Below, piece by piece: positions 2,519-16,200 of a stretch of 64,000 nucleotides of DNA. The notes under the pieces were generated by a model that saw nothing but the letters and a program-made list of their open reading frames with translations, was not told the DNA's origin and searched no databases. The position numbers and the translations under genes are program-made. The stretch lies in the NCBI GenBank assembly GCA_029246285.1, contig JAQWNW010000045.1, positions 1 through 64,000 on the forward strand, given 5' to 3'. This DNA is from Paracoccaceae bacterium. GTDB taxonomy: Bacteria > Pseudomonadota > Alphaproteobacteria > Rhodobacterales > Rhodobacteraceae. Position 1 is the stretch's first letter; the number at the start of each line of letters is the position of its first letter.

Positions 2519-2895
2519 CACAAATCGCTTTTTTCCAAATTAATAACTACTCCTCTGTGAGTTACCACTAATACACAGCCGGAGGGTGAAAAACTGTCAT
2601 GCCGAGAACCACCGGCTAATGAAACAAAATCTCCTTTTTTATACTCATAGCCATCACTATCAATTAAGTCACCTTCAAGAACAAAAAACTCTTCTGGACC
2701 AGAATGCTCATGAGGATTAGAACGTGCACCTGCATCCATTTTGTATAAATACGACCCTTGCCCAGTTTCTTGATCAAAACTTAAATTATACCACCAAACA
2801 TTATCTTCTGGCTTCCAATCATCAGAAGTTTCTAATGAGTCCCATGTTAATGTTTTCAGGTTTGCGACGGTTCGCAACTCGTCCAATTTATTCAT
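2518..2895 (-). CDS. Small single-domain cupin in the TMAO operon
   Basis: 125 aa. One cupin barrel is visible: motif 1 around residues 58-72 (HEHSGPEEFFVLEGD) and the second histidine in GGSRHDSFSP near residue 97, so a metal site is likely. It resembles the ChrR-type cupins. The gene overlaps tmoW by four bases (ATGA) and tdm by one (TGATG), so all three are probably translationally coupled. No signal peptide is seen; it should be cytoplasmic. The substrate is unknown. Coupling to Tdm suggests handling of a methylated amine or formaldehyde adduct, or a sensor or stabiliser role, but nothing in the sequence decides this. Confidence 0.8.
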   Translation of the reverse strand: MNKLDELRTVANLKTLTWDSLETSDDWKPEDNVWWYNLSFDQETGQGSYLYKMDAGARSNPHEHSGPEEFFVLEGDLIDSDGYEYKKGDFVSLAGGSRHDSFSPSGCVLVVTHRGVVINLEKSDL

Positions 2896-4949
2896 AATCC
2901 TAAAATCTTTTTCCTTTCTGCTGCCCAGGTTCGTATTAAGTGGTCAACAGCGAGACCAATAAAGGCTACACAAAGGCCTAAGACCAACCCATTGCCTGTT
3001 CCATTCTTATCTGAAAGTGCTTTTAAGATATATTGACCTAAATCATCTGTTCCTATCATTGCACCAATAATCACCATAAACAAAGCAAACACTACCGTTT
3101 GATTTACTCCAAGCATCATATGAGGAAATGCCAATGGCAAATCGATCTTCAACCACCTTTGTATTCGATTAACCCCAGACATCAAAGCAGCGTCATGCAA
3201 AGACTCTGGCACACTTCGTATACCTTCAACTGTATAACGAGTAGCCGGAATGGTAGCATAAACAATAACAGCGATTAATACTGATGTATCAGTTACTCCG
3301 AAAAGCATAATTACTGGAATTAAATAAATAAAGGATGGAAATGTTTGAAAAGTATCACAAACAAGAAGAATAATCTTCGTACTTAACTGATGTTGCGCAC
3401 ATAATGAACCAACTGTAATCCCAATTATTGCTGAAACAATTACACCAAATGTAGTCATGTAAGCCGTTATTAAAGCGCGATCATACCATTCCGTTAATGC
3501 AATAAACAATAAAAACCCACCTACTATAAGTGCTGATTTTATACCACCTACAATATACCCTACTCCCATAACCAAAACAAAAGTCGCAACAATAGGCATA
3601 CTAAGATAAGCTTGTTTCATCGGCATAAGTACACTTATTATTAAAAACTCATTAAATACTTTTAATTTAAAAAAGAAAGTATCCCAAATCCAATCAACGC
3701 CTGCTTGCCAAAAATTTTCAGTGGTGATTCCTTTATTGTGCGGAATTAAATACAAATAATTGTAAGTATCTCTAAAGATAAAATTTCCCAAATAAGCAAC
3801 AATTGATCCTAGTATCAATATAAAAATAATTATTAAGATATACTTATGGCGATGAAAAAAACTCTTATTTGCAAAGTAATTTTTCTGTTTGTTAGCCCAA
3901 GCCAGGGACAGTTTATCAAGTGAGACAGCTATCAATACGATACAAATGCCAAGCTCTAAGGCTTGCCCTATTCTCAATTGGTTTAAGGCTAATAAAAGAT
4001 TAAAACCCAAACCTTTCGCACCTATGAACGAGGCTATAACAGCCATAGCCAAACATTGCATAATAACTTGATTTATCCCAATAAGAATATCTCTCCGCGC
4101 AGATGGAATTAAAACACGAAAGAGGAGTTGAAAGTTACTACACCCACTCATCATTCCTGCTTCACTTATTTCAATAGGGACATTTTTCAAACCTAAGATT
4201 GTTAGGCGTACCATTGGAGGGGTTGCAAAGATGATTGTAGCAATTGCCCCTGCATGATCTCCCACTCCAAAAAACACCATTACTGGCACCAAATAGGAAA
4301 AATGAGGCATTGTTTGAGCAATGTTCAAAATCGGGTTCAAGGCTATTTCAACATTCTTATTTTTATAGCCTAATACGCCCAATCCCAATCCAAGCAAAAA
4401 AGAAATAGGTGCTGCTATTAAAACAAAAGATAGCGTTTCCATTGCCGGTTCCCATTGACCAAAGACAGCAATATAAACTGAAGAAAAGCAAACTAAAATC
4501 GCTAAACTAGAGCCCTTTAAAGTATAACCTATAAAAATCGCAATTCCTGACACGACCGTCCATGGTAAAGCGGGCCAATAAGCCCATTTATTTTCACTTA
4601 CAAAATCCCAACTTGTAAAAGTAACAATAGTTTTCACACCCCCAAGTAAAATTTCTCTTATTAAGTCAATTGAAAACAAGATACCGCGAGCAATTGCTCG
4701 TGTTATTTCCTTGAATAAAGGTTTTTCTTCATATTCTTCAATCTCAGGATCAAAGATCTCAATGGGCATAAATTCAAACATAAGGTAGTCTACGAATTCA
4801 TTAATTAATATTGGTAATTGAGCTATCAATGCCGGAAATCGCCACAAGATATTCTGTTCTGAAGGAGTGATGATTGAACATAATATAAAAAATATTATAA
4901 TTAATCCTAATAACTGTAGTCTTTTGTCTTTAACAAATAACTCTACCAT
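2892..4949 (-). CDS. tmoW: TMAO-type ABC transporter, fused double permease
   Basis: 685 aa integral membrane protein. Two ProW/BPD_transp_1 permease domains lie in tandem, at residues about 160-320 and about 470-670. Each has the EAA-type cytoplasmic loop: SEAGMMSGCSNFQLLFRVL in the first half and HDAALMSGVNRIQRWLKI in the second. A hydrophobic N-terminal segment (residues 10-30) and an acidic stretch (EPEIEEYEEK-like, about residue 70) precede domain one. Glycine-betaine permeases normally have one domain and dimerise; here both halves are in one chain, as in TmoW of marine alphaproteobacteria. Start ATG overlaps the tmoV stop by one base (TAATG). Betaine or choline specificity cannot be excluded from the permease alone. 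Confidence 0.85.
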   Translation of the reverse strand: MVELFVKDKRLQLLGLIIIFFILCSIITPSEQNILWRFPALIAQLPILINEFVDYLMFEFMPIEIFDPEIEEYEEKPLFKEITRAIARGILFSIDLIREILLGGVKTIVTFTSWDFVSENKWAYWPALPWTVVSGIAIFIGYTLKGSSLAILVCFSSVYIAVFGQWEPAMETLSFVLIAAPISFLLGLGLGVLGYKNKNVEIALNPILNIAQTMPHFSYLVPVMVFFGVGDHAGAIATIIFATPPMVRLTILGLKNVPIEISEAGMMSGCSNFQLLFRVLIPSARRDILIGINQVIMQCLAMAVIASFIGAKGLGFNLLLALNQLRIGQALELGICIVLIAVSLDKLSLAWANKQKNYFANKSFFHRHKYILIIIFILILGSIVAYLGNFIFRDTYNYLYLIPHNKGITTENFWQAGVDWIWDTFFFKLKVFNEFLIISVLMPMKQAYLSMPIVATFVLVMGVGYIVGGIKSALIVGGFLLFIALTEWYDRALITAYMTTFGVIVSAIIGITVGSLCAQHQLSTKIILLVCDTFQTFPSFIYLIPVIMLFGVTDTSVLIAVIVYATIPATRYTVEGIRSVPESLHDAALMSGVNRIQRWLKIDLPLAFPHMMLGVNQTVVFALFMVIIGAMIGTDDLGQYILKALSDKNGTGNGLVLGLCVAFIGLAVDHLIRTWAAERKKILGL

Positions 4950-6031
4950 TATTTATTGCTCGCACTAGATTGCGCAATAGACGTAGTTTTTCCAAAAAGT
5001 ATATGAATAACTTTTGATGGCTTAACCATTCCGACCAACTTATTATCATTGTCAACCACTTGAACTGGTTGTTTTTCATTTAAAACTTCTTCGGCAACAG
5101 TTTCAATTATAGCATCTCTTAAGACTCTTAAATCACTTAAGCTTTCTGTGTCATCAACAGGATCCATAACTGTTTCAATTTTTAGGACTTTTTCTCTTGG
5201 CACTTCCTCAGTAAACTTTCGCACATATTCTGTAGCTGGGTTTAATACAATATTTGCTGGTGTATCTAATTGTTCAATCACACCATCTTTCATAATTGCA
5301 ATTCTATCCGCAAGACGTAGAGCTTCATCAAAATCATGTGTAACAAATAATATAGTTTTGCTTAAAACACCCTGTAGTCGTAAAAACTCATCCTGCATTT
5401 CTTTACGTATTAATGGATCTAATGCAGAGAAAGGTTCATCCAAAAACCAGATATCCGGCTCAACAGCTAAAGATCGCGCAATACCTACTCTTTGCTGCTG
5501 ACCGCCAGACAATTGTCTTGGAAAATAATTTTCTCGCCCGTCTAATCCAACAAGTTCAACCATTTCAAAAGCCTTGTTGATACTATCTTTTGTACTTTGT
5601 CCCTTAATTTGCAAAGGAAAGGCAATATTTTCCAACACTGTCTTATGAGGAAGTAAAGCAAAACTCTGAAAAACCATACCCATTTTATTACGTCGAAGCT
5701 CGATTAACTCTCTATTTTTCATAGAGAGAAGATCTTGCCCATTAACAAAAATATTTCCTGAAGTTGCTTCCGTTAATCGCGACACACAACGAAGAAGTGT
5801 AGATTTCCCAGATCCAGACAATCCCATTATCACCAACATCTCACCATCATAGACTTCAAAGGATGCATTATTCACACCAACCACGCAGCCGGCTTCCTGA
5901 AATAACTTAGGATCCACATTTCCATCTACATTTTTTAACATTTTTTCAGCATTATCACCAAAAATCTTATAAACAGAGTGGCATTCGATGACAGGATTAC
6001 GCTTTTTCAAAATATGATCTTTCTTTGGCAT
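4949..6031 (-). CDS. tmoV: TMAO-type ABC transporter ATP-binding protein
   Basis: 360 aa ATPase of the glycine betaine/proline (ProV/OpuAA) type. Walker A is GLSGSGKST (about residue 70), the Q-loop is MVFQSFALLPH, the signature is LSGGQQQRVGIARS and Walker B is IWFLDEPFSALD. The tail after about residue 280 is long and contains a partial CBS-like segment (QVVDNDNKLVGMVKPSKV), as in osmoprotectant ATPases. It sits between the binding protein gene and the permease. The 172-base gap upstream contains a strong hairpin (6161-6184), so its expression is probably lower than that of tmoX. The ribosome site is weak (GGGAAA). Confidence 0.86.
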   Translation of the reverse strand: MPKKDHILKKRNPVIECHSVYKIFGDNAEKMLKNVDGNVDPKLFQEAGCVVGVNNASFEVYDGEMLVIMGLSGSGKSTLLRCVSRLTEATSGNIFVNGQDLLSMKNRELIELRRNKMGMVFQSFALLPHKTVLENIAFPLQIKGQSTKDSINKAFEMVELVGLDGRENYFPRQLSGGQQQRVGIARSLAVEPDIWFLDEPFSALDPLIRKEMQDEFLRLQGVLSKTILFVTHDFDEALRLADRIAIMKDGVIEQLDTPANIVLNPATEYVRKFTEEVPREKVLKIETVMDPVDDTESLSDLRVLRDAIIETVAEEVLNEKQPVQVVDNDNKLVGMVKPSKVIHILFGKTTSIAQSSASNK

Positions 6032-6160
6032 AAGATGTTTCCCAGTTGGACTTACATTTAATGATTTTCAAAGATTTTCTTTAATAATTGCCCTAAACTT
6101 AATAAATAAAAATAATAGATTCTAATGATATTTTTTAAATTATGATTTTTATCTCAATAT

Positions 6161-6184
6161 TTCTGGGCGAATAAACGCCCAGAA
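6161..6184 (-). promoter_or_regulatory. Intercistronic stem-loop between tmoX and tmoV
   Basis: A perfect 9-bp inverted repeat (6161-6169 with 6176-6184) around a 6-base loop starts 20 bases after the tmoX stop. The minus-strand transcript has no clean U-run after it, so it looks less like a full terminator and more like a 3' stabiliser or partial terminator. Such elements are common after binding-protein genes, where they let that subunit be made in excess. Confidence 0.7.
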
Positions 6185-6203
6185 AAAGTTTTTATATAAG
6201 ATT

Positions 6204-7142
6204 TTACATTCCAGCTTCTGTAAATGGTTTCCAAACATCTTCGTGATCAGCTAACCAACTTTTTGCAGCATCTTCATGGCTCATTTTATCAATGTCTACC
6301 AAGGCTGCCATCTGGCCTATATCTTGAGTTGTAAATGACATTCTTGAAAATGCTGTATAGGCTGCTGGATGAGTTTTTGGAAATTTATAATTAGCTGCTT
6401 TTTTTAACCAACCTTTTGGCGATCCACAGCTTCCATCTCCCCCATCTGCTTTACGACAACCATCCGTATACTCAGGAAAGTCTATAAAAGTAAATCCTTC
6501 AGCGTCTGTGAAGTTTGGTGTCCAATTAAATATAATTGTACCGCGACCCTCTTTTTTAGCAGCAGCTAAATCTGCCCACAGCGCATCAGCACCACCTGCA
6601 AATTTCACAACATAATCATCCCCTAATCCAAGCGCTTCCACTCTAACAGGCATCAAATCACCATGCCAACTTTGAGGACCTTCAAGCCAACGACCTTTGC
6701 CACCAGAATCTGGAGTAGCAAAAACTTCTTTACAATTTTTTAATGCTTCCCAATTTGGCAATCCTGGACACAAATCTTTTTCAATTACCCAGGTAGGTAC
6801 GCCCATTTCTTCAAGTGTCATCGCTGCATGTGTTCCAGCGTCAATAACTCCACCTTTAGCCATCGCATTATAGAATGACTTTCCAAAGCTAGATTGCCAA
6901 ACTTCATGTGAAATAGTCACGTCACCATTTCTGATAGCTTCATACACAGCTTGAGAGTCTGCTGGTACATATTCTACATTATTTCCCATACTCTCAAAAA
7001 TTCCCCCAATAACATATGCCATAACAACTTGACTAGACCAGTTATGTGTCGGGATCACAATTGGCTTACTACTATCTTCAGCCATAACGGATGCGGGCAG
7101 TGCTAACAAACCTGCAAACAATATTGAAATCAATTTCTTCAT
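6204..7142 (-). CDS. tmoX: TMAO/betaine-type periplasmic substrate-binding protein
   Basis: 312 aa. A clear signal peptide (KKLISILFAGLLALPASVMA, cut near residue 21) sends it to the periplasm. The rest is an OpuAC-type quaternary amine binding protein: IVIPTHNWSSQVVMAYVIGG at the start of lobe one, an EVWQSSFG segment, and many tryptophans (EVWQ, WLEGPQSWHGD, LWADL, NWTPNF) of the kind that form aromatic cages for trimethylammonium groups. Start ATG is preceded by AGGGAG. In the cluster with tmm and tdm it is best read as TmoX; glycine betaine or choline are alternatives. Confidence 0.85.
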   Translation of the reverse strand: MKKLISILFAGLLALPASVMAEDSSKPIVIPTHNWSSQVVMAYVIGGIFESMGNNVEYVPADSQAVYEAIRNGDVTISHEVWQSSFGKSFYNAMAKGGVIDAGTHAAMTLEEMGVPTWVIEKDLCPGLPNWEALKNCKEVFATPDSGGKGRWLEGPQSWHGDLMPVRVEALGLGDDYVVKFAGGADALWADLAAAKKEGRGTIIFNWTPNFTDAEGFTFIDFPEYTDGCRKADGGDGSCGSPKGWLKKAANYKFPKTHPAAYTAFSRMSFTTQDIGQMAALVDIDKMSHEDAAKSWLADHEDVWKPFTEAGM

Positions 7143-7235: not shown

Positions 7236-8579
7236 TCAACTCAAATGCAAATAGCTTTCGAGTGAATCATCAAGCGCATCTACCCACTTTGTGTGATGAG
7301 CAGGCGCTACTTTTTTCGTCATTGGGCTAGTATGCCCTATGTCTCTAAAACTCATAATGTCCTTTTTCTTGTTCTTTTTCCATTCATAGAATGCTTTATC
7401 AGACGCCTCGATATCAAAAGATGGATAGTCCGTCTCGGAAATCAATTCTTTTGTATAAGCACCCTGATAATCTATACATCCATAATCATCTTCTAGCGCA
7501 TCTTCTGCGGCTATCCTATCAATGACATCTTGTTTCATCACTTCTGAACTCGGCAGGTCTATGCGGTCCATAATAATGTCTCTGACATACCAAGCCTGAG
7601 CATCAAACATATTAAAAGTGTACCATTGATCCTGCATACCTAAATAAAAGATTGCAGGATTATTATTCCAAACTACGCCTTTATATAAATCGGCACTGGC
7701 CAATCGATTAGTAGTTTTAAGACGAAGGTCATCAGGTAAGAATGGAAAATGATGTTTGTATCCAGTGCACAATATTATTGAATCAATCCGAGTAGAACTA
7801 CCATCAATAAAATAAGCTTTTTCACCATCAACACGTTCAAGCGCTGGTACCTCTTTCCAATTATCTGGCCAATCAAAACCCATAGGCGCAGTGCGGTGCG
7901 CAACGGTAATTGATTTGCAACCATATTTCCAACATTGCGAACCAATATCTTCTGCCGAATAACTAGTGCCCAAAATTAACAAATCTTGACCCTTAAATTC
8001 TAAAGCGTCACGAAAATCATGTGCGTGCAGGATTCTACCACCAAATTTCTCAAAACCTGGATAATATGGTGCATTAGGGGTCGAAAAGTGCCCAGATGCG
8101 ACGATTACATTATCAAAAATTTCTCTGCTTTCAGTGTCGCTTTCATTATTTCTTGCAGTAATCTCAAATTTTTTACTTGAAGGATCAAAACGAACATCTC
8201 TAACATTTGTGTTAAAACGAATTAAATTTCTTATACCTGCTTTCTCAACACGACCCTTTATATAATCAAATAAAACTTCTCTTGGCGGAAAGCTTGCAAT
8301 AGTTTCACCAAAATGCTCTTCAAATGTGTAGTCAGCAAACTCTAAACCTTCTTTAGGGCCGTTAGACCACAAGTATCTATACATTGAACCATGGCAAGGA
8401 TCGCCAGCAGCGTCTGTCCCTGTTCTCCATGTGTAATTCCATAATCCACCCCAATCAGATTGCTTTTCGTAACAAACAAGCTCTGGTATCAAGGCTCCTT
8501 TTTCCTTAGCAGACTGAAATGCCCTAAGCTGTGCTAAACCCGACGGACCGGCCCCAATTATTGCAACTCTTTTCTTCAT
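7236..8579 (-). CDS. tmm: Trimethylamine monooxygenase
   Basis: 447 aa flavin-containing monooxygenase that oxidises TMA to TMAO with NADPH and O2. Visible motifs: FAD-binding GAGPSGL near the N terminus; a second Rossmann motif [17 protein letters not shown] for NADP; the FMO signature around [14 protein letters not shown]; and the C-terminal [13 protein letters not shown] strand. The length and the [16 protein letters not shown] segment fit bacterial Tmm. The start is set at the second ATG (8579) because GGA lies about 6 bases before it, while the ATG at 8585 abuts the site. It is coupled upstream to the 200-aa unknown gene (21-base gap) and downstream to the importer, so TMA made or taken up enters the TMAO branch. 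Confidence 0.9.
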
Positions 8580-8600
8580 AATCATCCTTTCTAATTTCTA

Positions 8601-9203
8601 TCACGCATATCCGTTAGGAATATCAGGTTCAGCGACTGATAATTCCCAATCCACTTCAAAGCCTAAGACCTCAGTGTCGGGATGCAAGGAATAATTAAAC
8701 AACTTGTTATGCCACCATGTGGATTGATACAAATGGTGGTGCTTTTCAAACCGCCAAACTTTACAATGCAATTCAAAAACTTGGGCATAAGCATTAAAAC
8801 TTAAAATGCATTGATTTTCTTTATAAATTTTTTCAGCACCTAATGAATTGGGTACAAATGTTGCCGTTAAAATATCACTAAATGTTGATGGTTTTTGATA
8901 ATAGGCTTCTGCAAAAAACTTTAAGGCTTCCTGTCTTACCTGAGAAGCATCATTTGTTTTTTTTGCCATATGCTTCATTTCAGGGATAACCGAATAGTCT
9001 GTCGTTTTATTAATTAATGTAATAATTTGTCCCATAGGATCAGACAATTTTGTAAATTTTAATGTTGGCATTATAGCATTATCAGGCCTCCCATCCATTT
9101 GCCTGATCGACATTTGACGAATATGACATTGCCATTTCAAAAACAAATTACGCCGAGGATGGCTTTCGATTGAAGATCCTAGTAATTTGGCAAGAGAACT
9201 CAC
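8601..9203 (-). CDS. Unrecognised conserved-looking protein in TMA cluster (200 aa)
   Basis: I do not recognise a family. It overlaps the nitrilase gene by four bases (ATGA) and is followed by tmm after 21 bases, so it is almost certainly part of the operon. There is no signal peptide or membrane segment. The N-terminal third is basic with HPRRNLFLKWQCHIRQMSIR and a GRPDNAIMP turn; the C-terminal third is rich in aromatic residues and histidine (EKHHHLYQSTWWHNKLF), which could ligate a metal. Composition and codon use match its neighbours, so it is probably a real, established gene. Function is open; a part in dimethylamine or methylamine oxidation is only a guess from position. Confidence 0.75.
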   Translation of the reverse strand: MSSLAKLLGSSIESHPRRNLFLKWQCHIRQMSIRQMDGRPDNAIMPTLKFTKLSDPMGQIITLINKTTDYSVIPEMKHMAKKTNDASQVRQEALKFFAEAYYQKPSTFSDILTATFVPNSLGAEKIYKENQCILSFNAYAQVFELHCKVWRFEKHHHLYQSTWWHNKLFNYSLHPDTEVLGFEVDWELSVAEPDIPNGYA

Positions 9204-10054
9204 GCAACACTCCTATAATCTCTGTTCTTTAAAGCTATTGAAAATGACCTATCATGGCTCAAGCTAGGAATTTTGTTCCTTGCCTCAGCAACTTCATTTA
9301 AATTTATTTTAGCATAAACTATACCTGGCTCTGACCCACCATCAGCCATTATCTGGCCCCAAGGATTTATAATTAAAGAATGCCCATAGGCTTCGCCTCC
9401 ACCCGAAACCTTACCAACGGAGCAAGGGGCAATAATAAATACACCATTTTCAATTGCCCTTGCTCTATTAAGAATATGCCAATGTGCTTCTCCAGTCTTT
9501 TTTGTAAACGCCGCTGGTACACATACTATCTCAGCTCCTGCTTGAGCCATTTTTCTATAGAGCTCTGGAAAACGTAAATCATAGCAAATAGAATGCCCAA
9601 TTAAGCCAAAAGGTGTTTTCATTACAGATGCTTCACTACCAGGTGAGACAAATGCACTTTCGCGAATTACTTGATCAGATGAAAGTTGAATATCAAACAT
9701 ATGGATCTTGTCATAACGCGATATTATTTTCCCATAGCAGTCTAATACAAAACCCCGGTTAAAAATTTTACCCCCTTGAGCAGTAACCGCAATGGAACCA
9801 ATCATAATCCAAACTTTATTTTTCTTCGAAAATTCCTGCATGCTAAGTAAAAACGGATGTATTTCTTCTGGCAGCGCTGGAGGTCTTAGCTTCCCGTTTT
9901 CCGACATCAAACCGCCGCAATATTCTGGAAAAAATAAAAACTCTGCCCCTTTAGACACTGCGCCCTTTGCCAAATTTAACGCCTCTGATAAAGCATCATC
10001 AATACTACTATTAGGTTGCGTTTGAATACATGCTATGTGCAGAGATTTTGCCAT
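9200..10054 (-). CDS. Carbon-nitrogen hydrolase (nitrilase superfamily)
   Basis: 284 aa cytoplasmic amidase-type enzyme. The Glu-Lys-Cys triad is present: Glu in FFPEYCGG (about residue 44), Lys in SRYDKIHMFD (about 113) and Cys in IGHSICYDLRFPELYR (about 150). It belongs to the Nit-like/omega-amidase group by the overall pattern. The start ATG sits one base after the stop of the 137-aa gene. Known Nit proteins deamidate modified glutathione or alpha-keto acid amides such as ketoglutaramate. Placement within the gamma-glutamylmethylamide route suggests hydrolysis of a methylated amide side product (for example an N-methyl-ketoglutaramate-like compound), which is inference only. Confidence 0.82.
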   Translation of the reverse strand: MAKSLHIACIQTQPNSSIDDALSEALNLAKGAVSKGAEFLFFPEYCGGLMSENGKLRPPALPEEIHPFLLSMQEFSKKNKVWIMIGSIAVTAQGGKIFNRGFVLDCYGKIISRYDKIHMFDIQLSSDQVIRESAFVSPGSEASVMKTPFGLIGHSICYDLRFPELYRKMAQAGAEIVCVPAAFTKKTGEAHWHILNRARAIENGVFIIAPCSVGKVSGGGEAYGHSLIINPWGQIMADGGSEPGIVYAKINLNEVAEARNKIPSLSHDRSFSIALKNRDYRSVA

Positions 10055-10055
10055 A

Positions 10056-10469
10056 TTAAAACTTCATATACGCTTTTCTTAAAGTTGATAACGGGTGTCG
10101 ATCTGACATCTGAAATTTAAGCAAAAACTCTCTAGCCATCATGTCACGATCCTGCTGATTGTCTGGTAGCTCCCAATTTGATGGAACTCTTACCCAACCA
10201 TTAATATTTCGATCAAAAACAGCTGCATTTCCTTCTTCATACCCCATATGAACATCTTCCAACCAATTCAAATCATCCCAACCCATTATTTCCATATATT
10301 TAGACAAATAAGGCGTAATATGTTTGTAATCTGGTACAAGATTCACATCATAACGATATCCGATATGCTGTCCTATTTCTTGCTCTCGCTCTGACTCTAA
10401 ACCTTTAGCGTCATCTATAAACTGATTAACGTCTTTAATTTCAGACCCTCGATATTGCGTTCCGGCCAT
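10056..10469 (-). CDS. Unrecognised small acidic protein in methylamine cluster (137 aa)
   Basis: No family is recognised. It has a strong ribosome site (AGGAGA) and lies directly between mgsC and the nitrilase gene. The sequence is acidic in the first half, lacks signal or membrane segments, and has a tryptophan-rich middle (EIMGWDDLNWLEDVHMGYEE, GWVRVPSNWELPDN) and a basic end (STLRKAYMKF). The 52-base gap upstream carries a hairpin that is perfect as minus-strand RNA. The ordered, aromatic-rich sequence and codon use argue for a real gene. It could be an accessory subunit of the N-methylglutamate synthase or of an amine oxidation step; nothing in it shows catalysis. Confidence 0.75.
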   Translation of the reverse strand: MAGTQYRGSEIKDVNQFIDDAKGLESEREQEIGQHIGYRYDVNLVPDYKHITPYLSKYMEIMGWDDLNWLEDVHMGYEEGNAAVFDRNINGWVRVPSNWELPDNQQDRDMMAREFLLKFQMSDRHPLSTLRKAYMKF

Positions 10470-10521: not shown

Positions 10522-11886
10522 TTAAAGATGATGATAGTCCTCAACACCTACTGTATGATTTGTACCAGCCAATGGCACAGCGGCCATCGCAGAAGCTTCC
10601 ATTGTTAATGCCGCTAAATCTTCTGGCTCCAAGCTATGAAGATGCGTTTTACCACAGGCTCTCGCAAACAATTGGGCTTCAATGGTCAGTGTATGTAAAA
10701 AATTATATACCCGTTCCGCTGCTTCATCTGGATCAAGTCTTTTTCTTAACTCTGGATCTTGGGTAGCTACACCAACTGGACATCTACCAGTGTGGCAATT
10801 GTAACAATAACCAGGCTCTGCTCCAATCTCCTCAGGATAATTAGCTTCAGGTATATCCTTGTTACAATTCAAAGCCATCATCACTGAGTGACCTAATGCA
10901 ATTGCATCAGCTCCTAAAGCAATTGCCTTCGCAACATCAGCACCATTTCGAATACCCCCAGCATAAACAAGACTTATTTCGCCTCTCTTTCCTAGATCAT
11001 CGATTGCTTTTCTTGCTTGTCTAATTGCCGCCATACCAGGCACTCCAGTATCTTCAGTAGCCAAATGAGGGCCAGCACCGGTACCACCTTCCATTCCATC
11101 AATGTAAATACTATCAGGATCACATTTTACAGCCATCCTCACATCATCATAAACACGAGCAGCACCTAACTTTAATTGGATCGGTATTTGCCAATCTGTT
11201 GCTTCACGAATTTCACGAATTTTTAATGAAAGGTCATCTGGCCCCAACCAGTCTGGATGCCGAGCAGGGCTACGTTGATCGATTCCAGCTGGTAAAGAAC
11301 GCATTTCTGCCACCTGATCAGTTACCTTTTGACCCATTAAATGACCACCTAGACCAACCTTACAACCCTGCCCAATGAAGAATTCCACTCCATCTGCCAG
11401 AACTAAATGATTAGGATTAAAGCCATATCGAGATTGGATGCACTGATAAAACCATTTCGAACTATATCTTCGCTCATCAGGAATCATGCCCCCTTCGCCT
11501 GAACAAGTTGCAGTACCTGCCATTGTAGCTCCTCGAGCCAATGCAGTTTTAGCTTCATATGACAAAGCTCCAAAACTCATACCAGTAACATAGACTGGTA
11601 TATCTAACACCAAAGGATTCTTAGCTCTTGGACCTATAATTGTCTTAGTTTCACATTTTTCACGGTAACCCTCTATTACAAATCTGGTAAGTGTACCGGG
11701 CATAAAAGTCAGATCGTCCCAATGAGGGATTTTTTTGAATAAAGAAAACCCTCGCATTCTATATCGACCAAGTTCAGACTTAATATGAATATCGTCCATA
11801 ACATGTGGAGGAAAAATAAATGAATTACCTAATCTATAAGGATCTCGATCCAGTGGTTTCTTTTTTGGCATATTTCCATCGGCCAT
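10522..11886 (-). CDS. mgsC: N-methylglutamate synthase subunit C (GltB-type FMN domain)
   Basis: 454 aa, homologous to the FMN-binding/synthase domain of glutamate synthase. Typical stretches are VTGMSFGALSYEAKTALARG, GGMIPDERRYSSKW, DGMEGGTGAGPHLATEDTG and a Cys cluster at about residue 370 (CYNCHTGRCPVGVATQ) like the 3Fe-4S ligands of GltB. It joins methylamine from gamma-glutamylmethylamide to 2-oxoglutarate to give N-methylglutamate. In ordinary GltB this domain is fused to others; the three-gene split mgsA-mgsB-mgsC next to gmaS marks the methylamine version. The start is set at the ATG at 11886, 6-7 bases after GGAG; an upstream GTG lies too near the site. Confidence 0.88.
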   Translation of the reverse strand: MADGNMPKKKPLDRDPYRLGNSFIFPPHVMDDIHIKSELGRYRMRGFSLFKKIPHWDDLTFMPGTLTRFVIEGYREKCETKTIIGPRAKNPLVLDIPVYVTGMSFGALSYEAKTALARGATMAGTATCSGEGGMIPDERRYSSKWFYQCIQSRYGFNPNHLVLADGVEFFIGQGCKVGLGGHLMGQKVTDQVAEMRSLPAGIDQRSPARHPDWLGPDDLSLKIREIREATDWQIPIQLKLGAARVYDDVRMAVKCDPDSIYIDGMEGGTGAGPHLATEDTGVPGMAAIRQARKAIDDLGKRGEISLVYAGGIRNGADVAKAIALGADAIALGHSVMMALNCNKDIPEANYPEEIGAEPGYCYNCHTGRCPVGVATQDPELRKRLDPDEAAERVYNFLHTLTIEAQLFARACGKTHLHSLEPEDLAALTMEASAMAAVPLAGTNHTVGVEDYHHL

Positions 11887-11901
11887 ACGCACTCTCCTTG
11901 T

Positions 11902-12771
11902 TTATAAAATTAATTTTTTCTCAGTTGGCTCTAAATTGTCGTAGTTCCACAACATTTTTCCAGCCACAATTTTAGTGAAATGGTCCACACCATTATCAGG
12001 CATTAACCCATATTGAGTAAGTTTTCTTGTCAACCACGCGCGGTCTAAATCACTCAAAGGTTCCTCAACAGCATCCACACCTAGCGATTGAATTTCTCCA
12101 CCTACGTAGATGGTACCATCATACATGCTGTCACCTAAATTCTTGCCAGCATTACCACAAACAACCATTCTACCACGCTGCATCATAAAACCAGATAAAG
12201 CACCCGTATCACCTCCAACTATGATACTGCCGCCCTTCATATCAATGCCTGTTCTAGACCCAACACTTCCTTTACAAACTAAATCACCACCTCTGATTGC
12301 CGCTCCAAAAGTTGATCCAGCATTCTTTTCCACAATAACCGTGCCAGACATCATGTTTTCGCCACATGACCAGCCCACTCTTCCATTTATCCTTACATTT
12401 GGACCATCGATAAGACCAACACCAAAGTAACCAAGCGAACCTTCAAAAATTAAATTCAAACGATTTAATATCCCTACTCCGAGAGAATGTTTTCCTCTTG
12501 GATCCTTGATGACTATCGTCCCGTATCCCTGAGCCATCAACGAGCGGATTTCAGCATTCACTTCTGTTTCAGTCATATCGCCCGTGTCAATTTCTGTTCG
12601 CTTATTATAATCGACATCTGGGGCCCATGGATACGTGAAACGTTCTTCAGCATCCTCATCGAATTCTATAAACATAGAACGCCCCGTTAATTGCTCAGTT
12701 CTCATTCCGAGAGCAGTCACTCGCTCTTCTTGAGACATGTTCCTTAGTTCAGCATCACTTACGCTTGCCAT
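11902..12771 (-). CDS. mgsB: N-methylglutamate synthase subunit B (GXGXG domain)
   Basis: 289 aa, matching the C-terminal GXGXG beta-helix domain of glutamate synthase. Repeated glycine turns are visible (GRVGWSCGENMMSGTVIVE, RGGDLVCKGSVGSRTG, KGGSIIVGGDTGALSG, GRMVVCGNAGKNLGDS, DGTIYVGGEI). This domain has a structural role, holding the amidotransferase and FMN subunits together. The start overlaps the end of mgsA by 13 bases and mgsC follows at once, so the three are made together. Confidence 0.88.
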   Translation of the reverse strand: MASVSDAELRNMSQEERVTALGMRTEQLTGRSMFIEFDEDAEERFTYPWAPDVDYNKRTEIDTGDMTETEVNAEIRSLMAQGYGTIVIKDPRGKHSLGVGILNRLNLIFEGSLGYFGVGLIDGPNVRINGRVGWSCGENMMSGTVIVEKNAGSTFGAAIRGGDLVCKGSVGSRTGIDMKGGSIIVGGDTGALSGFMMQRGRMVVCGNAGKNLGDSMYDGTIYVGGEIQSLGVDAVEEPLSDLDRAWLTRKLTQYGLMPDNGVDHFTKIVAGKMLWNYDNLEPTEKKLIL

Positions 12772-13694
12772 ACTCTAACCTCCTCATCATATGGATCATA
12801 TGTATCAATTTCTTGAGGTAAGATTGCTCTTATCGCTACTTCCTCAGAAGCCATCGCAATCATCTCATCGCTTTCATAAAGAACCAATGGTTTCGCTGCC
12901 ATTGTATCCTTTGCCATTCCCAGCTGATTTTTTGTTGCAACTAGATAGGTAAAAACACCATCAATTTCTTCAATTGATTTGCGTAAACTATCTTCCAAAG
13001 ATACCCCATTAGACAAATCATGCGCGACATAAACAGCAAGTAATTCACTATCACAATTCGACATAAAACGATGGCCCTTTCTCTCCATCATTCGTCTCAT
13101 AATCCAATAATTGGTAATTTGGCCGTTATGAACAACACTCACATCATTGTAAGGAAACGCCCAGTATGGATGAGCAGACTTAATATCTACATCAGATTCA
13201 GTTGCCATTCGGGTATGACCAATACCGTGCGTACCTTTAAAGTCATTAAGACCGTATAGATCAGATACAACGCTCGCATCACCCAGGTCTTTTATTAATT
13301 CCAAACCATTACCCATTGAAAGTATTTCAACACCCTCTGTTTCCTCGATATGCTCCGCCATCATGCCAGTATCTCCATTGTGACTTAAAACATAACGAAG
13401 AGCATAGGGTGTAATTGCTTCTTTTGATTTAACAACGGCTCCATGTTCAGCTAATATTAAATCTACTTCAGCTATTCTGTTTTCCAATATACTTGTAATA
13501 CCCCGGCCTTTATTCATGTCCTCGGCTTCTGCAGCCTTTAATCTCATTATATAGTCACCACTCGAAGTATCGCCATAAACAGCGTATCCCGTTGAATCAG
13601 GTCCACGATGTTTTAATGCTTGAAGCATCGACGTCATTTCGCCTCCAACATTGGAGCTTTTACCGCGATGGATAAGTCCCGCAATTCCACACAT
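12759..13694 (-). CDS. mgsA: N-methylglutamate synthase subunit A (class II amidotransferase)
   Basis: About 311 aa Ntn-type glutamine amidotransferase domain. The catalytic cysteine must be residue 2 (MCGIAGLIHRGK), which fixes the start at the ATG at 13694 with AAAGG in front; an in-frame GTG five codons upstream would bury the cysteine. Family motifs GPDSTGYAVYG, GIGHTRMATESDVD, HNGQITNY and NCDSELLAVYVAHD are all present. It should release methylamine from gamma-glutamylmethylamide and channel it to MgsC. It follows gmaS after a 76-base gap that carries a hairpin. Confidence 0.88.
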   Translation of the reverse strand: MCGIAGLIHRGKSSNVGGEMTSMLQALKHRGPDSTGYAVYGDTSSGDYIMRLKAAEAEDMNKGRGITSILENRIAEVDLILAEHGAVVKSKEAITPYALRYVLSHNGDTGMMAEHIEETEGVEILSMGNGLELIKDLGDASVVSDLYGLNDFKGTHGIGHTRMATESDVDIKSAHPYWAFPYNDVSVVHNGQITNYWIMRRMMERKGHRFMSNCDSELLAVYVAHDLSNGVSLEDSLRKSIEEIDGVFTYLVATKNQLGMAKDTMAAKPLVLYESDEMIAMASEEVAIRAILPQEIDTYDPYDEEVRVWQA

Positions 13695-13725
13695 TTTCTT
13701 GCCTTTCACTAGTTAAAATAAATAA

Positions 13726-13770: not shown

Positions 13771-15252
13771 TTAAGGTAGACACTCCATATAAGTGTCACT
13801 GTCCCAATCCGTCACAGTGGACATAAAGCGAGCCCACTCATCTGACTTATATTCATGATACAACCTATACATCTCACCAGGCATACCGCGCTGAACTACC
13901 TCGTCAGCCTCTAATGCCTCCAATGCCTCTCCAAGGGACATCGGAAGTTTTTTCACATCTTTACCTTCTTTTATCGCTTCATAAATATTTCGTTCTTCAG
14001 GAGCTCCTGGGTCAAGCTTATTCTCAATTCCATCATCAGCAGCTGCTAGAATTGTTGAACCCATGATATAAGGATTAACCATTGAGTCGACAGATCTGTA
14101 CTCAAACCTTCCTGGAGCAGAAACTCTTAGACCTGTTGTTCTATTTTGGAATCCCCAATCTGCAAAAACAGGAGCCCAAAAACCCGTATCCCAAAGTCGC
14201 CGGTAGGAATTAACTGTTGAACAACCAATTGCTGTTAAGGCACGTAAATGATGTACAATCCCACCGATAGCGTCTAATCCGGCCTTCTGCGGCATTTGTG
14301 GATCAGAACCGTCTGGCATAAAGGTATTCTCACCTCCACCAACATACATATAGTTCTCTCTCATGCCGGGTAGGTTATCTGGATCATTTCCACATTTTAC
14401 AAACCTATCTTCACCACCATGCCAAAGAGACATATTGTGATGACAACCAGATGCTGACACACCCATAAAAGGTTTAGTCATAAAACATGCAAAGATGCCA
14501 TGTTCACGAGCAACTTGTGCACAAATTTGTCTATAAGTTGTGAGGCGATCTGCGTTGCGAAGAACATCGTCATACATCCAATTTAACTCCAGTTGCCCTG
14601 GCGCATCCTCGTGATCTCCTTGAATCATATCCAAGCCCATTTTTCGGGTATATTCCATGACTTTCATTGTTACCGGTCGTAAGCTCTCAAACTGATCAAT
14701 GTGATAACAATAAGGCTTAGAAAATCCATCATTTGGTTTTCCATTTTCATCGAACTTTAACCACATCATTTCTGGCTCAGTTCCAACTCTTAAGCTTAAT
14801 CCGTTATGTTTAGATTTAAACTCTTCATGTAAGCGTCTCAGATTTCCTCGTCCATCAGCGGTCAAGAATCCCCCTGGATTTTCTTTTTCCTCGCGATTTC
14901 TAAATAAAGTACAATAAAATCTGCCAATTCTCTTATCCCATGGCAATTGCATAAAGGTCTCTGGCTCTGGTATACCAACTAATTCAGCAGACTCAGGACC
15001 GTAACCTAAATAGTTATCAGCTCTATCTGTAAACAAGTTTACGGTTGCTCCATAAACTAACTGAAACCCCTTTTGAGCAACATTTTCCCAATGATCTGCA
15101 GGAATGCCTTTACCCATAATCTTACCTGTGATCGATACAAATTGTAGATATAGATATTCTATACCTAACTCATCGATCATTTTCCGAACTTCTTTGATTT
15201 TCTCGCTGCGCCCTGGCGCTTCTACGAATTTTTCTAGATCTGTTTCTGCCAC
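13771..15252 (-). CDS. gmaS: Gamma-glutamylmethylamide synthetase
   Basis: 493 aa, glutamine synthetase fold. It uses ATP to join methylamine to glutamate, the entry step of the indirect methylamine pathway. Glutamine synthetase landmarks: GTEPEMMWL, DHEDAPGQLELNW for the metal site, GVSASGCHHNMSLW and GLRVSAPGRFEYRS. The N-terminal ITGKIMGKGIPADHW and overall divergence from GlnA, plus three mgs genes directly downstream, identify it as GmaS and not an ammonia-assimilating enzyme. The start is GTG at 15252, with GGGAG about 11 bases before. It leads the cluster and faces a GntR regulator across two inverted repeats. Confidence 0.9.
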   Translation of the reverse strand: MAETDLEKFVEAPGRSEKIKEVRKMIDELGIEYLYLQFVSITGKIMGKGIPADHWENVAQKGFQLVYGATVNLFTDRADNYLGYGPESAELVGIPEPETFMQLPWDKRIGRFYCTLFRNREEKENPGGFLTADGRGNLRRLHEEFKSKHNGLSLRVGTEPEMMWLKFDENGKPNDGFSKPYCYHIDQFESLRPVTMKVMEYTRKMGLDMIQGDHEDAPGQLELNWMYDDVLRNADRLTTYRQICAQVAREHGIFACFMTKPFMGVSASGCHHNMSLWHGGEDRFVKCGNDPDNLPGMRENYMYVGGGENTFMPDGSDPQMPQKAGLDAIGGIVHHLRALTAIGCSTVNSYRRLWDTGFWAPVFADWGFQNRTTGLRVSAPGRFEYRSVDSMVNPYIMGSTILAAADDGIENKLDPGAPEERNIYEAIKEGKDVKKLPMSLGEALEALEADEVVQRGMPGEMYRLYHEYKSDEWARFMSTVTDWDSDTYMECLP

Positions 15253-15472: not shown

Positions 15473-15510
15473 AAATATTGGTACAAAATTGGTTAAAAAG
15501 GGGTAAATGC

Positions 15511-16200
15511 TTGGATAGTAATGTAACATTTAAATACGGGGCAAATGACATTGCTGCTCAATTAAGAAGAGATATTAACAGTGGTATCCTACAAAGATTT
15601 GAAAGGCTTCCACCAGAAAGATCACTATCATTAAAATTTAATGTATCTAGAGGTACAATAAGAGCAGCAATTAATAAATTAGAAACAGAAGGTTTAGTAA
15701 CGACAAAAGCTGGCAGTGGCACTTATATTTCTAAAAAAATATCAGGTGAAAATAGCAGCGTAATTCAAAATGCAAGGCCATTGGAATTAGTTGATGCCCG
15801 GTTTGCATTAGAACCACATATCTGTAGGCTTGCAGTCGTTCATGGAAGAAAGAAAGATTTTGAGAAATTAAACGATTTATTAGAAGAAATGGAAAAGAAT
15901 TATTATAATCCCACTATTTTTGGAGATACAGACACCTCATTTCATAGAGCATTAGCTGAAAGCACTGGAAATTCTCTCTTAATCTGGATGATAGAACAAA
16001 TCACATCTGTAAGAAACCAAGATGAATGGTCCAGAATGCGACATTTAACCTTAAACGAACAAATCATAAAAGAATATAATAAACAACACAGACGAATTTT
16101 AAATGCCATCAATGCAAGAGAGCCTGAAAATGCTGCTAGCATGATGCGCGAACATCTTCAGACAGCCCGCTTATCCCTAACCCAAACAGCAGACATCTAA
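15511..16200 (+). CDS. GntR-family regulator with FCD effector domain
   Basis: 229 aa. The N-terminal winged helix spans residues about 10-75 (LPPERSLSLKFNVSRGTIRAA, LVTTKAGSGTYIS). The C-terminal all-helical FCD domain (about 85-220) has the expected metal/ligand residues: DTSFHRALAESTGNS, HRRILNAI and REHLQTARL. The TTG start is chosen because AAAAAGGGG lies just before it; an in-frame TTG 33 bases upstream has no ribosome site. It is divergent from gmaS, with palindromes between, so it likely controls the methylamine cluster in response to a small carboxylate or amine metabolite and may repress itself. Confidence 0.85.
   Translation: MDSNVTFKYGANDIAAQLRRDINSGILQRFERLPPERSLSLKFNVSRGTIRAAINKLETEGLVTTKAGSGTYISKKISGENSSVIQNARPLELVDARFALEPHICRLAVVHGRKKDFEKLNDLLEEMEKNYYNPTIFGDTDTSFHRALAESTGNSLLIWMIEQITSVRNQDEWSRMRHLTLNEQIIKEYNKQHRRILNAINAREPENAASMMREHLQTARLSLTQTADI

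Follow-up and report, generated by a model that had tools for sequence, protein, structure and literature searches.

What does a 200-codon gene of no recognised family do in the middle of an operon for methylated amines? The gene, here termed X200, lies between a nitrilase-family gene and tmm in the window, i.e. the whole 64,000-nt stretch of Paracoccaceae DNA that was analysed, and an earlier note made from the sequence had considered it locked into an operon for trimethylamine (TMA).

146–2521, minus: tdm, TMAO demethylase (NF053776, 1204.7 bits, cut-off 1100)
2518–2895, minus: small cupin (PF12973)
2892–4949, minus: tmoV-like ABC permease with two permease stretches (PF00528 twice)
4949–6031, minus: tmoW-like ABC ATPase (PF00005, TIGR01186)
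6204–7142, minus: tmoX-like substrate-binding protein (OpuAC; PF04069)
7236–8585, minus: tmm, trimethylamine monooxygenase (NF058570, 796.6 bits, cut-off 675)
8601–9203, minus: X200, orphan family, 200 codons, GTG start; most conserved residues F21-x2-WQC-x2-RQ-x3-R34-x3-G38-x-P, D85-P86, H165-N166-x2-F169-N170 and W186
9200–10054, minus: nitrilase-family amidohydrolase (PF00795; 178 bits with the deaminated glutathione amidase model, cut-off of 500 not reached)
10056–10469, minus: p137, second orphan family and, by co-occurrence, marker of the cluster type (no Pfam or NCBIfam match)
10522–11892, minus: AltC, protein with a glutamate-synthase FMN domain, similar to MgsC yet of a type apart (PF01645)
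11902–12771, minus: AltB, GXGXG-domain protein, MgsB-like (PF01493)
12759–13709, minus: AltA, class II glutamine amidotransferase-like, MgsA-like (PF13522/PF13537)
13771–15252, minus: AltGS, glutamine-synthetase-like ligase, not a canonical GmaS (PF00120; TIGR03105 317.7 bits, cut-off 469.6)
15478–16200, plus: GntR-type regulator, divergently transcribed and named by eye, which stays close to AltGS in many relatives

The products of tmoX, tmoW and tmoV (2892–7142, minus) are only 50%, 56% and 41–45% identical to those of a same-genus genome (L001), whereas the other operon genes reach 91–99%; matches of 73–80% to the window's tmoX/W/V occur in another genome (G090, L076). The transporter cassette thus seems to have been swapped inside the operon. 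The nitrilase-family gene (9200–10054) could encode an omega-amidase-like repair enzyme for oxoglutarate amides.

X200 is a genuine gene of an orphan family

X200 is no chance reading frame: it stays open not only in the window but also in the two same-genus genomes, evolves at a dN/dS of 0.13 relative to the first of these (dN 0.031, dS 0.246) and of 0.11 relative to the second (dN 0.168, dS 1.53), and belongs to a family conserved over much of the class. Its four-base overlap with the nitrilase-family gene (9200–9203) is as the earlier note had described. The 21-base distance to tmm given there holds for a tmm start at the second in-frame ATG (8579); with the ATG of the listed ORF (8585), the gap is 15 bases.

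The absence of a recognised family, likewise noted before, was borne out: searches of X200 against Pfam, NCBIfam, PHROG and PADLOC returned nothing near significance (best E 0.02), and Pfam and NCBIfam searches with each member of a 37-sequence alignment nothing better than E 0.019. Neither the window protein nor any of the 37 members matched PF11927, GcvT or reductase families in Pfam. Rubredoxin-like and other weak matches from phmmer and hmmsearch against the PDB were rejected (E 0.05 or worse).

Two alignments were built, of 17 (A1) and 37 (A3) sequences. Same-genus copies (L019/L020), repeat copies (L003, L021, L080, L081) and a spurious sequence (L018) were left out of both, and L001, L005, L008 and the partial L045 out of the larger one. 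Across the 37 sequences, with identities to the window's X200 down to 17%, columns F21, Q25, C26, R29, R34, G38, D85, F108, H165, N166 and F169 are invariant, and W24, Q30, P40, P86, F116, S120, L134, F136, V149, N170, F182 and W186 nearly so. The aromatic and histidine-rich motif quoted earlier, EKHHHLYQSTWWHNKLF, is present in the translation. It had been read as a possible metal site; of its histidines, H165 alone is universal, and H155–H157 fall outside both sets of conserved columns, so that a metal site in this HHH stretch is unlikely and was rejected.

The window carries a second, paralogous GmaS/Mgs-like system

The genes upstream of p137 had been taken for gmaS and the NMG synthase genes mgs. 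This assignment was dropped, since AltGS, at 317.7 bits, stays below the cut-off of 469.6 of TIGR03105 (named type III glutamate–ammonia ligase), which the canonical ligase of these genomes exceeds, and since none of the 250 plasmid records matched encodes a protein that reaches 60% identity to AltC. The canonical operon is found on another contig of the same genome (C44), which holds a complete mgsA–mgsB–mgsC–gmaS run (301, 227, 443 and 435 aa) with a ligase scoring 654 bits. Between the two sets of this genome, identities range from 28 to 52% (AltC to MgsC, 52%; AltB to MgsB, 39%; AltA to MgsA, 33%), while AltC is 77–100% identical among the p137 clusters read. The window hence holds a second, paralogous GmaS/Mgs-like system (AltGS–AltABC–p137), to which X200 belongs.

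The two types coexist in many genomes. GmaS exceeded the cut-off in 32 of the 44 genomes with p137 and was not found above it in the other 12; in one genome (G325), Alt and canonical sets stand back to back. Seventy-two GS-like sequences, assigned to classes by identity before the analysis and with identical ones counted once, were placed in a tree, in which the 32 canonical sequences formed a clade (support 0.986) and the 33 Alt sequences grouped with one further sequence, L140 (support 0.766). By PDB match, AltGS is no closer to GmaS than to GS: an entry named glutamate–methylamine ligase (9qur) scored 204 bits, ordinary glutamine synthetases 201.8 and RhGmaS (7cql) 196.5. In G378 (L170/L063), a canonical GmaS stands in the AltGS position, upstream of AltA.

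X200 follows the p137 cluster rather than tmm

The genomes with X200 analysed here comprise 15 of a family sample and 24 further ones of a class sample, 39 in all, with the same-genus genomes G149 and G150 kept outside this set; adding G102, G231, G345, G356 and G377 gives the 44 genomes with p137. Among the 149 genomes of the family sample, X200 was found in 15 and p137 in 16, and all 15 genomes with X200 have p137; the sole p137 genome lacking X200 (G102) has a contig that ends within the nitrilase gene. In the class sample (337 genomes), X200 occurred in 25 and a clear p137 in 29, again with p137 in 25 of the 25. Hypergeometric probabilities for this nesting, which ignore shared ancestry, are 6e-34 for the class sample and, as a second figure, 1e-19. 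The 24 X200 genomes outside the home family span 17 families. Of the 30 class genomes that have an AltGS of at least 65% identity, 24 also have X200.

Four genomes with a clear p137 cluster (G231, G345, G356, G377) yielded no X200 by profile in the stretches read around it, which implies that the system can run without X200; in G356, for example, the same AltGS–AltABC–p137 set is found. A search of the phylum sample recovered X200 in two of 349 genomes, both within the class, the share of that sample lying outside the class not being shown. Neither X200 nor p137 had a tblastn match in 72,556 plasmids, and a scan of viral contigs gave no relative.

p137 accompanies the Alt ligase/synthase cluster in a nearly one-to-one manner (29/337 and 16/149 genomes) and, at 64–87% identity in the loci read outside the genus, is far more conserved than X200. 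Two candidate genomes were dropped: G108 for X200, where the match covered about 54 aa at E 2e-4, the 37-row profile gave 5.6 bits and 6 kb of sequence showed no cluster genes, and G344 for p137 (27% identity, E 8e-4). Also left out of the cluster genomes were G083, G046 and G415, whose AltGS-like ligases (70, 51 and 61%) had no mgs-like genes beside them in the sequence read. AltGS is present in G322 and G342 (72 and 88%) as well, with neither p137 nor X200; there the contigs break off within or ahead of the cluster.

In 33 of the 39 genomes, no more than about 4.5 kb separates X200 from p137. All 15 home-family genomes have X200 downstream of p137 on the same strand, and in other families it is near p137 in 18 of 24, on the opposite strand in 15 and co-directional in three. 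Since strand varies across families and proximity is kept, the link survives rearrangement. In the remaining six genomes (G166, G325, G334, G410, G418, G428), X200 is located elsewhere though p137 is present; in G418 it follows tdm. In 10 of the 15 home-family loci, X200 is followed directly by tmm. Over all, tmm exceeds its cut-off in 22 of the 39 genomes and at least 16 show none, G146 having a tmm fragment at a contig end; in the nine tmm-containing genomes outside the home family, it is at least 3.3 kb from X200 or on another contig. Because proximity to p137 is kept and tmm is often distant or absent, X200 is to be counted as a gene of the p137 cluster, with tmm as a frequent neighbour in one family. 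Homologues thus sit mainly inside methylated-amine clusters, the context that had been proposed as a check; of the suggested lock into a TMA operon, the methylated-amine operon stands and the tie to TMA oxidation as such does not.

AltGS retains the amine pocket of GmaS

Seven amine-pocket residues of RhGmaS (K30′, Y147, Q175, D177, E179, E186 and N188; roles according to the part of PMC7948447 consulted) are identical in 33 of 33 AltGS and 32 of 32 canonical sequences. Asp50, which binds ammonium in GS, is absent from both AltGS and canonical GmaS; AltGS has Val in 31 and Trp in two sequences at this position, as read from an alignment that has an insertion nearby and in which Arg312 could not be mapped. 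An extra stretch of AltGS (about DRADNYLGYG in the window) lies near the loop of GS Asp50. One constant difference among the positions checked is the replacement of GmaS Tyr174 by Ile (33/33 AltGS); in the same portion of PMC7948447, Tyr174 is counted among the ATP-phosphate ligands, beside the pocket residue Gln175. PMC7948447 also gives the Km values of RhGmaS, 16 mM for DMA as compared with 27 µM for MMA.

With the seven pocket residues kept and Asp50 gone, AltGS should take a methylated amine, and because a canonical GmaS is often present for MMA, an amine other than MMA is plausible. In 12 of the 36 loci that were clustered, a DAO-type FAD oxidoreductase (PF01266; e.g. L066 15824–17272, minus) is encoded no more than about 1.2 kb away from AltGS; it had no match in the window and is a candidate dehydrogenase for N-methylated glutamate. 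In G345, an mgdABC-like run, judged by eye, follows p137, which fits any N-methylated glutamate.

Dimethylamine as a possible substrate

In the window, the Alt set stands in the same operon as tmm, the TMAO transporter genes and tdm, and the product of Tdm is dimethylamine (DMA). The earlier statement that the window lacks a recognisable DMA monooxygenase held when extended to the whole genome with PF11927 (HODM/Dmm alpha-like): one distant gene was found, on another contig (L130 4393–5262, minus; 25% to R. conchae DmmC over 171 aa), with no match to DmmA, DmmB or DmmD in the 10 kb read around it. This gene adjoins an OpuA-type ABC transporter set and a GS-like gene, as judged by similarity to window genes, and GS-like genes are also near the PF11927 gene in L183–L186.

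By PF11927 and reading of neighbours, none of the 39 X200 genomes, 22 of them with tmm, has a recognisable DMA monooxygenase. PF11927, which we take to equal DUF3445 and, from the R. conchae gene order, to be DmmC, occurs in 12 of the 39, and all 12 loci were read with R. conchae DmmA–D as queries. Ten gave a DmmC match of 24–30% over at most 233 aa and two (L187, L191) none; no DmmA or DmmB match was obtained at E 1e-4 in any of the 12, and a GcvT-like protein was found at 25–26% in L181 and L187. For comparison, DmmC of Ruegeria and Methylocella are 62% identical according to the part of PMC5520151 consulted. Eleven of the 22 tmm-containing X200 genomes have no PF11927 gene at all. Among plasmid records, Tmm was matched in 139 and DmmC in 148, with nearly the same genus counts, and 14 of the best 15 of the 139 Tmm records are among the 25 of the 148 DmmC records listed. 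This suggests two alternative arrangements, Tmm with Dmm or Tmm with Alt, in a comparison of plasmid records with X200 genomes, some incomplete, that is no controlled genome-wide test.

Tentatively, and at unfavourable odds, the window operon might encode a glutamate-dependent DMA pathway filed under gmaS/mgs, with p137 and X200 as dedicated, undescribed proteins. AltGS would make gamma-glutamyl-dimethylamide from the DMA released by Tdm, AltABC would convert it to N,N-dimethylglutamate, and dehydrogenases would strip the methyl groups from the latter. If true, such a route would fill the ‘DMA bottleneck’ reported for marine bacteria with tmm and tdm that lack dmm, possibly including SAR11. 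Against DMA stand the canonical GmaS in the place of AltGS in G378, which suggests that the Alt synthase may work with ordinary GMA, and the 12 of 44 p137 genomes without a GmaS over the cut-off, in view of which the Alt set may serve as another route for MMA. No tmm was seen in at least 16 of the 39 X200 genomes, and the PDB entry that AltGS matches best is named as a methylamine ligase. The SAR11 glxBCD–glnT genes, assigned to MMA by homology in the portion of PMC3160333 consulted, also count against DMA. A literature search for gamma-glutamyl-dimethylamide or dimethylglutamate retrieved only unrelated work, judged by title and the start of the abstract.

Fold models of X200

X200 was folded in two jobs, full-length and trimmed, on the same three sequences, two of them 75% and 92% identical to the window's, so that the jobs are not independent; mean pLDDT was 43 and 52, and pTM 0.39 and 0.47. 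The best Foldseek match in the PDB was a PNPOx-like protein in both cases (full: probability 0.96, E 0.025; trimmed: probability 0.84, E 0.12), and neither search gave a match at E 0.001 or better. VIA-align placed the full model with PNPOx/HupZ/F420-type split barrels in 48 of 50 rows (Z 5.7–6.9) and the trimmed one in 50 of 50 (Z 6.0–8.8), with HupZ/HutZ on top (Z 8.8–8.1 over 108–113 residues, rmsd 3.2–3.8); these rows, which we take to be split barrels from our reading of the entries, are re-ranked Foldseek matches, in which Z below about 8 can reflect a common arrangement and the absence of a family does not speak against it.

Sequence profiles did not support a PNPOx assignment, which was rejected on that level: none of the 37 X200 members matched a split-barrel Pfam family, and hhalign against a 20-sequence PNPOx set stayed at the control level of 17 unrelated families, a weak test because the set mixed subfamilies and contained at least one row (L100) that looks wrong-frame. 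The invariant residues fall largely in the model's first helix and in the HN-LFN helix, neither of which is known as an FMN-binding motif, and no known FMN, F420 or haem motif was recognised. From the models, a split-barrel fold for X200 is somewhat more likely than not.

Role of X200

We favour X200 as a dedicated accessory protein of the second GmaS/NMG-synthase-like system (AltGS–AltABC–p137), not of TMA oxidation proper, with a probability of roughly 0.45. That the family exists, is conserved and is nested in a p137 set distinct from canonical GmaS/Mgs is established directly; the chemistry, the fold and the accessory role are proposed. AltGS, its GmaS amine pocket kept, would join a methylated amine to glutamate, AltA would then free the amine again, and the FMN subunit AltC would place it on the alpha-carbon of an oxoglutarate unit, yielding an N-methylated glutamate for demethylation by a dehydrogenase. 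The most likely target of X200 would be AltABC and not the amine; X200, small, soluble and perhaps a split barrel, may bind flavin or haem and help to load, reduce or protect the FMN synthase. Such a flavin- or haem-linked role is the leading mechanism, and clearly one that we infer with the help of the models; its weakest link is the cofactor step, which taken by itself is rather improbable.

Alternatively, X200 might itself be a flavin- or haem-dependent oxidative enzyme that demethylates DMA or N-methylated glutamate and so supplies the missing DMA step, as would suit a modelled fold class that includes flavin, F420 and haem proteins, some of them oxidoreductases, the lack of a recognisable Dmm in any X200 genome and the position ahead of tmm in 10 of 15 home-family genomes. 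However, four genomes with the p137 cluster do without X200, tmm is remote or missing in the genomes counted above, X200 has no recognisable cofactor motif, and the Alt ligase/synthase together with Mgd-type dehydrogenases (the run identified by eye in G345) already offers a demethylation route, all of which makes this decidedly unlikely.

Equally unlikely is a regulatory or adaptor role, in which X200 would respond to the level of amine or of glutamyl amides and adjust the ligase, the synthase or an ammonium/methylammonium transporter. GS-type enzymes often have protein effectors. X200 is divergent from an AmtB-type transporter gene in three genomes (G184, G312 and G410; L049, L056 and L059, the last gene named by eye) and directly downstream of canonical gmaS in G180, where the match starts about 30 bases after the gmaS stop. 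Yet the AmtB adjacency is limited to one family (f34), X200 of the home family sits amid an enzyme operon, and Pfam gave no helix-turn-helix or PII match.

Still less likely is an enzyme that would act with the nitrilase in the repair of by-products such as 2-oxoglutarate amides. In 13 of 15 home-family loci and in G378, p137 and X200 are separated by a nitrilase gene, which in the window overlaps X200 by four bases, but it is missing from that interval in G037 and G054 and in 17 other linked genomes of other families, all of which keep X200. A nitrilase-family gene is found on the cluster's far side in G229 and G225 (43–46%).

An accessory subunit of trimethylamine monooxygenase, suggested by its place directly before tmm in the window and, in total, in 10 of the 15 home-family loci, is highly improbable and largely refuted by distribution, as 17 of 39 X200 genomes lack tmm over the cut-off (one of them, G146, with the contig-end fragment) and the nine other-family genomes with tmm have it at a distance or on another contig.

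One genome carries two paralogous GmaS/Mgs-like sets, the second in an operon that also has tmm and tdm but showed no Dmm; through this operon, the DMA question becomes directly testable in alphaproteobacteria, and two orphan families, X200 and p137, gain a pathway. Homology-based annotation may be mixing Alt and canonical sets. Neither X200 nor p137, which have no searchable name, is described in the literature searched, including the parts consulted of PMC5520151, PMC13390433, PMC3160333, PMC4543880, PMC5023235, PMC6237917, PMC7574528 and PMC7948447; according to the part of PMC13390433 covered, unnamed ORFs were omitted from its cluster figure.

Comparison with known systems

In modelled topology, X200 resembles PNPOx-like and HupZ/HutZ split-barrel proteins (Z 6.0–8.8 for the trimmed model); it differs from them in having no sequence-profile support and in that many of its invariant residues lie in an N-terminal helix. 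DmmDABC (HODM) fills the metabolic slot from DMA to MMA, between Tdm and the MMA pathway, which X200 would also occupy; the two gene sets were not seen together in the plasmids and X200 genomes searched.

The closest comparison is with the canonical NMG pathway of GmaS and MgsABC (e.g. on the Ruegeria conchae plasmid NZ_CP081104). For Methyloversatilis, the portion of PMC5023235 consulted numbers the loci of gmaS, mgsABC and mgdABCD without a gap, so that nothing like p137 or X200 lies between them. The NMG synthase of M. extorquens works in P. putida from mgsABC, whether gmaS is present or not, according to the part of PMC6237917 covered; the canonical synthase therefore needs no partner like X200 or p137. 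The same part calls the redox cofactor of NMG synthase unknown. Canonical and Alt sets consist of the same kinds of genes, i.e. a GS-like ligase and GATase, GXGXG and FMN subunits. They differ in order, the ligase coming first in Alt and last in the alphaproteobacterial canonical sets read here, although Methyloversatilis also lists its ligase gene first (PMC5023235, same portion). Unlike the canonical GmaS/MgsABC sets, the Alt cluster has p137 and X200 as orphan genes of its own.
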